Shown here: positions 18,635-55,690 of the stretch, one piece after another
How positions within the stretch are numbered: position 1 is the first letter of the stretch
Layout of the letters: every line of letters starts with the position of its first letter
DNA from: Candidatus Woesearchaeota archaeon
Lineage (GTDB): Archaea; Nanobdellota; Nanobdellia; Woesearchaeales; DSVV01
Direction: 5' to 3'
DNA: 64,000 bases
Assembly (NCBI GenBank): GCA_018661705.1
Contig: JABJHR010000013.1
Span: forward strand, 1 to 64,000
Position numbers and translations under genes: made by a program
Notes under the pieces: model-generated
Databases searched by the model: none
What the model was told of the DNA's origin: nothing
What the model saw: the letters and a program-made list of their open reading frames with translations, nothing else

Positions 18635-18736
18635 GAAAAAAACAACTACAATGGCCAGGCGAGTTGAACAAAGTGAGACGAGTAGGGTTTTCCCATAGGA
18701 AAAACACGTCTGAGCCGTTATTGTTGTTGTTTTTTG
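18635..18736 (+). repeat. Family A structured element, copy A1
   Basis: The outer A/T stem pairs AAAAAACAAC(T)ACAAT with ATTGTTGTTGTTTTTT with one mismatch. Inside come GGC/GCC, a one-nt bulge on the 3' strand, CAGGCG paired with CGTCTG (one G.U), a variable arm, the conserved CGAGTAGG, and a hairpin GTTTTCC/GGAAAAAC. The + strand gives the G.U-compatible fold. Confidence 0.7.
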
Positions 18737-18879
18737 CTCCTTTGTTATTGTTCATTAATCTTTTTATCTAAGCTAAATAGGCAACAAACTTTATAAATGT
18801 CAAAGCTATTCTTTATAAATAATAAGGGGGTAGTGATAATTAGATTAATAACAGTAGATTCACAGAATTAGGTGTAAAA

Positions 18880-19599
18880 ATGCATGAAAAAATATTAGAA
18901 GATTTAGGATTCAGTAAGAACGAAGCTAAATCTTATCTTGCACTTCTTGAATTAGGATCTGCAACTGCTGGACAAATTGCTGAAAAATCTAAAGTACATA
19001 GAACAAATGTTTATGATGCAGTTGAAAGAATGTATGAAAGAGGAGTTGTTTCTTATAGAACAGTTTCAAATGTGAAATATTTCCAAGCATCACCGCCACA
19101 AAGTTTGTTTAGACTGTTAAAAGAAAAAGAAGAAAGATTAAGTAATGTATTACCCGAACTTCTATTAAAATTAGAAATGTCTGAAAATAAAAGTGAAGCA
19201 CATATTTTTCAAGGATTAAAGGCATTATTTGATATTTTATATCACTTTCTTAGTTATAAAGATGACATTAGAGTTTATGGCATTCCAAAAAGTGTGCCAG
19301 AAATTGTAAGAACCTACATACCTCATTTTCATAAAAAAAGAATCCCTTTGAAAGTTAATATGTTGCATATATATAATCACGATGCTACAGAAAGAATTAA
19401 ATTACTTAAAAAAATGGAATTCACTGAAGCAAAAAGTTTACCTGAGAAATTTGATTCAAATGTTTCTACTTTTGTATGTGGAGATGAAGTAGTCTTAACA
19501 TCATGGGGGCCACCAATAATTTCAACACAAATAATCAATAAAACACTTGCAGAATCCTATAAAAGATATTTTGAAATTCTATGGAAAGAAGCAAAGTAG
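18880..19599 (+). CDS. TrmB-family transcriptional regulator
   Basis: The N-terminal ~70 residues are a TrmB winged helix (LGFSKNEAKSYLALLELG, then helix-turn-helix SKVHRTNVYDAVERM). A short coiled coil follows (about 85-110), then a C-terminal PLD-like/TrmB sensor fold (EAHIFQGLKALFDIL onward). TrmB proteins sense sugars or other small molecules and act as repressors or activators. Length (239 aa) is normal. Two other TrmB genes (29949 and 50865) share its domain order. It lies divergent to the ATPase operon, so control of that operon is possible but unproven. Confidence 0.93.
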   Translation: MHEKILEDLGFSKNEAKSYLALLELGSATAGQIAEKSKVHRTNVYDAVERMYERGVVSYRTVSNVKYFQASPPQSLFRLLKEKEERLSNVLPELLLKLEMSENKSEAHIFQGLKALFDILYHFLSYKDDIRVYGIPKSVPEIVRTYIPHFHKKRIPLKVNMLHIYNHDATERIKLLKKMEFTEAKSLPEKFDSNVSTFVCGDEVVLTSWGPPIISTQIINKTLAESYKRYFEILWKEAK

Positions 19600-19606
19600 T
19601 ATAGTC

Positions 19607-19850
19607 ATAAGTATTAAGTTCTAAGTTTGAAGTTGGTGAAAAGTAATTTAGTTTTGAGTAATGGGTCTTAAGTTCTGGGTGGGTAATCAGTAAGTAGTTA
19701 TGAGTTTAGTTGTGTTTTCTCAATACTAATTAACCTATAACCAAATCCCTTTACTGATTTACCCAAAACCAACTTATAACCCATAACTCAAAACCACTTA
19801 CCTATTTATTGTCCCAAAACCAACTTCTTACTTCTAACTTCAAACTACTT
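19607..19850. repeat. Family D A+T-rich fold-back, copy D1
   Basis: A ~240-nt imperfect inverted repeat between convergent genes. The left arm AGTTTTGAGTAATGGGTC..AAGTTC pairs with the right arm ..AACTTATAACCCATAACTCAAAACC, and the outermost TAAGTTTGAAGTTGG with CCAAC..ACTTCAAACT. The centre shares TCTCAATACTAATTAAC with D3. A bidirectional terminator or a MITE-like element is possible. Confidence 0.75.
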
Positions 19851-19852
19851 AC

Positions 19853-53630: not shown

Positions 53631-53661
53631 GATTGAAGTTTCTTCAATATTTTTTAATTTC

Positions 53662-54303
53662 TCATCCGCCCCATCCAACAATATGTATCTCTTTAGTCTT
53701 GTATTGATCTTCAAGTATTCCTAATGTCTTTCTTAACAATTCTCTGTCTGTATCACGAAGCCCAGGAAGAGAAAGTATTCCCTCTTTTTGTGTTAATAAA
53801 TCAGTCACCATTGCATTACCTGCATCAGTAAATGTTTCACCACGTGGAAAACCACCGGTATCATGAGAAATCCCTAAATTTTTTGAACTCATATGCACGT
53901 AAGGATCATTTGATGGCTGGTACCTACCAAATTCAAATGCAACCACTGCACTATTATCTTCTTCACAGCCCGCATCCAATTGTTGTACTAAACTTCTAGC
54001 AACATAACCTAATTTAGCTGAGAAACTTTGCATAACTGATAATGGTGATGTTGGGAAAAAATAATTATTAAAACTAATCTTTGCATAAGGTGTTTCAAGA
54101 CCATAACTAAAAGCCTCGCCAATATCATCAGGAATTCTCTCTCTAAGAGAATCTGGTAATTCATCCATACTTTCTCTACCAAAAAATTTATGAGGAGGAT
54201 TTCTTCCAATTTCTCTCCAAACTAATGCTCCTAAATCTTCAAATGAAGCTGAGAATATATTACTTACTCTTACTTGTGGTTTTTCTGCTGGTTCTGACAT
54301 CAT
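53662..54303 (-). CDS. Unknown 213-residue protein linked to TGT
   Basis: I do not recognise it. It is a soluble mixed-fold protein with Gly/Pro-rich loops and two acidic/Cys segments (DAGCEEDNS). No signal peptide. GAGGTG lies just upstream of the paired ATG codons (54303, 54300); the second has better spacing. It follows the TGT stop by 9 nt, so it is probably in the same transcript, but a link to queuosine is only positional. Confidence 0.7.
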   Translation of the reverse strand: MMSEPAEKPQVRVSNIFSASFEDLGALVWREIGRNPPHKFFGRESMDELPDSLRERIPDDIGEAFSYGLETPYAKISFNNYFFPTSPLSVMQSFSAKLGYVARSLVQQLDAGCEEDNSAVVAFEFGRYQPSNDPYVHMSSKNLGISHDTGGFPRGETFTDAGNAMVTDLLTQKEGILSLPGLRDTDRELLRKTLGILEDQYKTKEIHIVGWGG

Positions 54304-54312
54304 TTCACCTCA

Positions 54313-55554
54313 TTACTTTAACCATTCCTTCTTTAATTCTTCAAACTTACCATCATCAATTGCTTTTCTTATCTTTTCCATCAACTTAATGAAGAAATAA
54401 ATATTATGAAAACTTGCTAGTGTATAACCTGTGTATTCATTTGTTTTTAATAAATGACGAACAAATGCTCTTGAGTAATTCTTACATACCCAACAATCAC
54501 AGTTAGGATCTAAAGGTTGTTTATCGTCTTCAAAATCTTTACCTATTAATCTAAATCTGAATTTATTTTCTACTGTACCACCTGAGTTTGGTAAGATGTA
54601 AATATAACCTGCTCTTGCAACTCTAGTAGCAGAGTTACAATCAAATGTATCAATACCTTGTTCCACTGCTAGCAAAATATCTTCTGCTGTTCCAATACCC
54701 AGTAAATGTCTAAATTTATTTTCTGGAAGTATTTCATCAACTTCTCCAACTAGTTTATACATGTCTTCTTTGCTTTCTCCAAAGAAACCACCTAATGCAT
54801 ATGCATCAAAATCTCTCTCTGCAAAAAACTGTGCAGATTCTTTTCTTAGATCTTGAAAATTACCACCCTGAATAACTCCTAGTAAAAACTGATTAGGAGA
54901 ATTGTCTGAGTGAGAAACATTTTCTTGATGATATTTCAAACACATCTCTGCCCATTTATGAGTTCTTGCTAAACTTGTTTTAACATAATCATAGTCATGT
55001 AATGGAGAAGTGCATTCATCAAATGCAATAATTAAATCACTTCCTAGTTTGTGTTGAATAGCAATTGATTTTTCTGGAGTAAGTTCTTGGATAGAATTAT
55101 CATAAACACTTCTAAAAGTTACTTTATCTCCTTTAATCTTAGCAAGCATTACTTCTTTATTTTCTTCTTTAACTCTTAAAGCATTTTGTTCAATAGATTT
55201 TTGTTCTTCCTCACTTAATCTAGATTTTATTTTATTTGCTTTATGAACTAATCCATAACCTAAACTAAACACTTGAAAACCACCAGAATCAGTAATAATT
55301 GGTTTATTCCAATTCATAAACTTATGTAGCCCACCAAATTTCTCTATTAATTTCTCACCTGGCTTTAAAAAAAGATGATAAGTATTACACATTAATATTT
55401 GAGAACCTAACTCATTCATTTGTTCCTGTGTTAAAGCCTTAACAGTTGCTTTTGTAGCTACTGGAATGAAAGCAGGTGTTTGTATATTCCCATGTTTAGT
55501 TGTAATTACACCAGTTCTTGCTTTATTTTGTTTGGATTTTATTGTGAAGAGCAT
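54313..55554 (-). CDS. tgt: Bacterial-type tRNA-guanine transglycosylase (queuine/preQ1)
   Basis: 413 residues. [36 protein letters not shown] and [11 protein letters not shown] are TGT motifs, and the zinc site is CDCWVC plus a downstream His. The sequence matches the bacterial tRNA guanine-34 exchange enzyme rather than archaeal ArcTGT, which acts on position 15 and carries a PUA domain, absent here. So it should insert preQ1 or queuine at the wobble position. An insert of ~35 residues ([14 protein letters not shown] region) interrupts the core, as in some DPANN/CPR homologues. It is probably divergent from QueH. Confidence 0.93.
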
Positions 55555-55599
55555 ATATAAGAGAATTGGTTGAGGGTTTATATAGTTTTTTAGGAAAAA

Positions 55600-55690
55600 T
55601 CACCAACAATGGCGCGCTGATGAGCCAAAGGCGAATAGGATTTTTGAGCGAAGTGAAAAAGTCCGTGAGCGCTGCCATTATTGTTGGTGA
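55600..55690 (+). repeat. Family A structured element, copy A6
   Basis: TCACCAACA..ATGGC pairs with GCCAT..TGTTGGTGA; inside are GCGCT.ATG/CGT.AGCGC with one G.G mismatch, a bulged T, small arm GCC-aaa-GGC (reversed pairs relative to A3/A5), conserved GAATAGG, and a longer terminal arm. It sits between the divergent TGT and QueH genes. Confidence 0.75.

Follow-up and report, generated by a model that had tools for sequence, protein, structure and literature searches.

REPs have been described as short palindromes, mostly from bacteria (PMC3733652, PMC12306157), and GTAG and CGTC are the tags of their two super-families (PMC3733652). REP doublets (REPINs) and the tandem reiteration of these together with their flanks have also been described (PMC3116915); TnpA_REP is strand-specific and requires GTAG (PMC8266576). 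Archaeal Y1 proteins have been reported as IS200 type only (PMC6006769).

An element that looks like an undescribed archaeal counterpart of these mobile hairpin repeats is dispersed through the genome of a Candidatus Woesearchaeota archaeon (G000; 1.65 Mb, 19 contigs). The window analysed is a stretch of 64,000 nucleotides (C11:1-64000), for which inspection of the letters had predicted five full copies and one half copy. All five full copies lie where they had been placed, both orientations occur, and the half copy represents the 3' half of a copy on the minus strand. Each full copy has an outer A/T stem, GGC/GCC, a one-nt 3' bulge, a junction, and two arms. The fold consists of a long outer stem, a short P1, and a three-way junction comprising P2, a conserved RTAG, and the P3 hairpin followed by GTC. 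Bit scores are from R1, a covariance model of the narrow family built from 16 copies.

18635..18736, plus strand: full copy, 62.5 bits; 5' outer arm 18637-18652, GGC 18653-18655, GCC 18714-18716, 3' outer arm 18723-18735; CAG 18656-18658, paired with CTG; P2 5' strand 18659-18665 and 3' strand 18677-18683; RTAG 18682-18685; P3 about 18685-18707; GTCTG 18708-18712
24378..24405, minus strand: half copy limited to the 3' outer arm, GCC, P1, and one half of P3, ending inside P3
27141..27230, minus strand: full copy, top R1 match of the genome, 103.5 bits; outer arms 27215-27229 and 27142-27158; P2 27202-27208/27192-27198; GTAG 27190-27193; P3 27171-27189; CGTCTG 27165-27170
27263..27281, minus strand: family-B hairpin, GTGAGTGACATTGCC TTC GGCCTAGTGTTG, about 35 nt 5' of the 27141 copy and in the same orientation
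35461..35571, plus strand: full copy with the P2 arm extended by an extra hairpin, GAGTTCTACGAACTC, 61.5 bits; P2 35480-35489/35523-35532; ATAG 35531-35534; P3 35535-35544; CGTCCG 35545-35550
41812..41900, minus strand: full copy between convergent genes, 99.7 bits; outer arms 41886-41900 and 41812-41827; P2 41873-41879/41863-41869; ATAG 41861-41864; P3 41842-41860; CGTCCG 41836-41841
55600..55690, plus strand: full copy of the GCGCTGAT/GTGAGCGC subfamily (longer P1), 55.7 bits; outer arms 55600-55610 and 55677-55690; P2 55620-55626/55630-55636; ATAG 55635-55638; P3 55639-55663

The subfamily of the 55600 copy has three additional P1 pairs. The half copy is fused to a palindrome, GCTTGAT...ATCAAGC, at 24362-24379; this palindrome (GCTTGAT-GTTA-ATCAAGC, also at L115:11023-11040, with related sequences in L121, L108, and L122) borders several copies at their 3' or 5' arm. 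Family B, ACATTGGC-TTC-GCCCTAGTGTTG or ACATGTCC-TCC-GGACCTAGT with covarying stems, is found in the window at 27263-27281 and 58746-58765 (both minus strand) and has 36 pattern matches in 844 kb of G000. It keeps a fixed distance to copies, lying 5' of about 13-20 of them in G000 and 3' in the congener G001, and B-like sequence occurs in inverted orientation on both flanks of some copies. The window also holds a further dispersed AT-rich repeat, the TACTGATTTACCCAAAACCAACTT... family (19633-19794 and 36428-36589, 162 nt each and 78% identical; also 19752-19853 and 34701-34751), and coding-like tandem repeats with a unit of 150-171 nt (CAAGAATACAAACACTAACAGAAGAGAAAGAAA) at positions 1-433.

The copies are by no means confined to the window. 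Searching G000 (1.65 Mb) with R1 at a cut-off of E<0.005 returned 79 sites, and the window copies have E-values from 1e-22 to 3e-10, which together place the element far beyond chance. BLAST with one copy as the query already found about 30 relatives in this genome. There are 46 sites in the 323 kb of G001 searched, and 21 of 99 sampled relatives were positive with R1. The elements are 80-140 nt long, intergenic, and present in dozens of copies per genome. R2, a broader model of a superfamily with a longer P2 arm (consensus GGGGNTGYCCCNTACGGGGTG), was positive in 101 of 288 genomes, about one-third of the order, with the copies per genome being "at least" values in many of them. Among the matches listed, every genome positive with R1 or R2 falls within the same order, a spread bounded by the sampling, as the phylum samples as listed comprise members of that one order only. 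Relatives with exact core matches, where named, are all Candidatus Woesearchaeota. No element match was found in the viral contigs, phages, and plasmids searched. The original prediction suggested that the element may be undescribed, and this agrees with the outcome of comparison with the Rfam 15 covariance models, which gave no credible match at gathering or permissive thresholds, and of the literature search, which retrieved no description of it.

That structure rather than sequence is kept, as had been claimed, is borne out by covariation. In an alignment of 68 copies from G000 fitted to the model, 97.3% of cells are paired (83.5% when shuffled), and two-sided changes occur in 28 of 30 pairs. 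The alignment reaches a covariation score of 0.427, compared with 0.164 +/- 0.007 for shuffled alignments (0 of 500 reach 0.427) and 0.039-0.075 for slid versions of the alignment. All core helices covary, as does the outer A/T stem, and an initial 16-copy MAFFT alignment gave the same picture. The broader type has two-sided changes in 20 of 25 pairs and a score of 0.466 vs 0.168. Terminal bases are variable with compensatory changes and the core is conserved; the outer arms fall into few sequence classes (CAACAAC, ATCCAGCC, ACACCACCAC, and GCCGCACGCC), which are common to distant families.

The predicted CNGRYG/CGTCNG stem is present, but its inner part pairs otherwise: the partner of the Y of GRY is not in GTC but is the R of RTAG. 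Watson-Crick pairs join Y and R in 64 of 67 copies (CG in 39 and TA in 25), whereas shuffles give a mean of 35 and a maximum of 46; the small arm thus reaches through tandem G.A pairs to Y-R. We read these pair counts as a small arm composed of Y, tandem G.A/A.G, GGC/GCC, and a closing R, and a junction with the order P1 / P2 / A / P3 / GT / P1. RTAG lies 5' and GTC 3' of P3 in nearly all copies, and the first base of RTAG is G or A, covarying with Y. In the broader type (L196-L253), three strands of the P2 tip change together (5' GGGGG/AGGGG/GAGGG, middle CCCC/TCCC/CTCC, and 3' GGGG/GGGA/GGAG), which suggests a base triple or two alternative hairpins.

A double-stranded cruciform would give equal numbers of G.T and A.C pairs. 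The core pairs include 113 G.T vs 4 A.C in G000, 73 vs 0 in G001, and 119 vs 9 in the broader type, so the folded form is one single strand and not a double-stranded cruciform. The functional form is the GAYGAG strand, as RNA or ssDNA, two states that the wobble asymmetry does not separate. The family is genuine, spans the order, shows strong covariation, and consists of archaeal interspersed elements that fold as a single strand.

Copies occupy 36 tandem, 17 divergent, and 8 convergent gaps, compared with 131, 78, and 35 in a background of all gaps of at least 130 bp (from crude, ORF-based gene calls); they follow the background proportions, with no gene-context preference. Their orientation relative to genes is not consistent (24:12 and 11:14), and tests against GC skew or gene strand revealed no bias. 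Target-site duplications were undetected in 116 copies, the longest string shared by the flanks averaging 4.13 vs 4.22 when shuffled. Of 14 syntenic gaps in which G000 or G001 carries an element, about six have one in both genomes and about eight in one only; no precise empty site was read among the loci compared. At two of the roughly six shared sites the elements have opposite orientations, one of them plainly an inverted core inside the same arms, and two further genome pairs, G278/G061 and G005/G008, can have different elements at the same site (L216/L235 and L246/L233). Counted by hand, some 23 of 24 close pairs have the (-,+) arrangement: six in G278, four in G001, three in G296, two each in G061, G000, and G095, and one each in G005, G008, G057, and G073; the single (+,-) pair is in G001. 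Such inverted doublets are frequent in the broader type and rare in the subfamily of G000. Tandem duplications in G001 involve the 3' arm and flank, and 5' fragments adjoin full copies. Units made of the 3' arm or 3' part and the downstream flank are repeated two to four times at L154:8074-8400, L157:10001-10230, L150:10001-10182, and L138:930-1000.

The lack of context and orientation preference, the syntenic turnover, the inverted doublets, and the tandem partial duplications favour mobile DNA, and we consider it probable, if only just, that the elements are non-autonomous, REPIN-like mobile palindromic elements. Like REPs and REPINs (PMC3733652, PMC3116915), they are dispersed, intergenic, and palindromic, with one strand recognised and no target-site duplication. 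As in REPs, R/GTAG precedes the hairpin and CGTC follows it; as in REPINs, there is tandem reiteration with flanking DNA and, in the broader type, inverted doublets; and as in some REP families, the hairpin sits inside a longer palindrome. The predicted resemblance to bacterial REP elements, with a specific junction, is supported. Whereas REPs are single hairpins of 20-40 nt, the archaeal elements reach 80-140 nt, with a second arm, a long outer stem, and a three-way junction; their RTAG can be ATAG or GCAG, and no REP-type transposase (RAYT) is adjacent. They therefore look REPIN-like in anatomy and behaviour, but membership of the REPs/REPINs fails on size and RAYT association. IS200/IS605 subterminal hairpins, which are single-strand hairpins recognised by Y1 HUH proteins, are comparable and likewise free of target-site duplications (PMC6006769), but the copies described here are gene-free and do not lie beside tnpA.

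A REP-associated transposase-like gene, which the original prediction had proposed to look for, was sought: Y1 proteins correlate with the element across genomes, but are absent from G000 and without physical linkage. PF01797 (Y1 HUH) is present in 24 of 38 element-positive vs 12 of 61 element-negative genomes (OR 7, p=3e-5; size-stratified p=6.5e-4), and DDE_Tnp_1 also co-occurs (OR 2.7, p=0.04). G000, with about 80 copies, has no match to Y1 (PF01797), DDE_Tnp_1, or TnpB, an absence from a copy-rich genome that counts against the mobile-element explanation. G001 has no DDE_Tnp_1, and the copy-rich G061, G095, G013, G043, and G069 are also without Y1. In the loci inspected, including those of G001 and G070, no copies flank a Y1 gene; the IS ends at the Y1 loci of these two genomes are unrelated to the element, and the palindromes at the G001 tnpA are unrelated too. 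The gene families common to the neighbourhoods of copies included no conspicuous transposase-like one. The Y1 link is a lead and not a result, and may reflect general mobile-element load or phylogeny.

Mobilisation could proceed as follows. When single-stranded, e.g., on the lagging-strand template, the strand would fold, and a trans-acting, strand-specific nuclease or transposase would recognise the junction and RTAG. The enzyme would then cut the single strand and move it to another intergenic site, and the tandem partial duplications may arise when the template is switched at the arms. The leading candidate for this enzyme, on grounds of analogy and co-occurrence only, is a Y1 HUH protein.

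Two orthologous cores are identical between G000 and G001 at 53/53 and 56/57 positions, with fourfold sites at 59% (7,274 sites), and one G278/G061 orthologue pair has an in-place compensatory change from GGC/GCC to GAC/GTC. These few cases argue that resident copies are under selection or homogenised; the conservation and compensatory change suggest selection and count against the mobile-element reading. They would also fit a cis-acting RNA, with copies dispersed by mobility or recombination and retained because the junction, as part of transcripts, would act at the 3' ends of mRNAs or within untranslated regions, be it in termination, stability, processing, or protein binding. G.U pairs in a one-strand fold, tandem G.A pairs, and conserved loops are features typical of RNA, and a U-rich 3' tract results from either end of the outer stem. 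However, the tandem, convergent, and divergent gaps are used without preference, orientation to genes is inconsistent, presence and absence differ widely between congeners, and many relatives have few or no copies, which makes this account possible but unlikely. The original pair of alternatives, an archaeal RNA or a mobile hairpin, was thus well chosen, with mobile DNA the favoured member and RNA the lesser possibility; mobile hairpins may in addition be put to use as RNA.

Strong RNA-like structural conservation and the order-wide spread of the broader type are also what a family of trans-acting small RNA genes would show, each copy being an independent ncRNA spread SINE-like or by recombination. 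We regard this as improbable: apart from hairpin module B in a subset, there is no conserved promoter-like block upstream, there is no Rfam relative, and the arms of different copies have become dissimilar in sequence and length, also where these copies occupy one site.

Slightly less credible still are classical MITEs, in which the outer arms would be terminal inverted repeats moved by a DDE transposase. The long inverted arms do fall into few classes common to several families, and the elements are, like ERIC, NEMIS, bcr1, and RUP (MITE-like palindromes of about 100-150 nt listed in PMC3733652), intergenic, high in copy number, and strongly folding. Unlike these, they have a conserved core and variable ends with compensatory changes, the reverse of a MITE, together with strand-asymmetric wobbles and no target-site duplication. 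DDE_Tnp_1 is absent from both G000 and G001, and no autonomous element, with a DDE gene enclosed by the same arms, was seen among the genes near copies.

Very improbable is a catalytic or recombination motif, i.e., a hammerhead ribozyme (GAYGAG-P2-CGAA) or an integron attC site. The sequence CTGATGAG...CGAATA in some copies resembles a hammerhead core, but a hammerhead has an unpaired CUGANGA core and a U-H cleavage site, whereas core positions 4 and 6 are paired here and vary with their partners, and Rfam gave no hammerhead match at E<=10. The AAC/GTT repeats and one-strand folding recall attC, whose ends are RYYYAAC/GTTRRRY; it is rejected on structure, as the arms do not fit these ends and copies occur in both orientations and are not cassette-spaced.

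Mobility and selection may also have acted in succession. We tentatively raise the possibility of a domesticated, order-wide superfamily of branched ssDNA or RNA, which would have spread by archaeal single-strand transposition and then been kept in place by selection in the role of structured regulators between genes, whole elements being exchanged at fixed sites with the junction preserved. That a REPIN-like superfamily with a three-way junction extends across Woesearchaeales, and is abundant even in a genome lacking the common transposases tested, points to a single-strand mobilisation or maintenance system in DPANN archaea, and the covariance models make this question testable in any metagenome or RNA-seq set.
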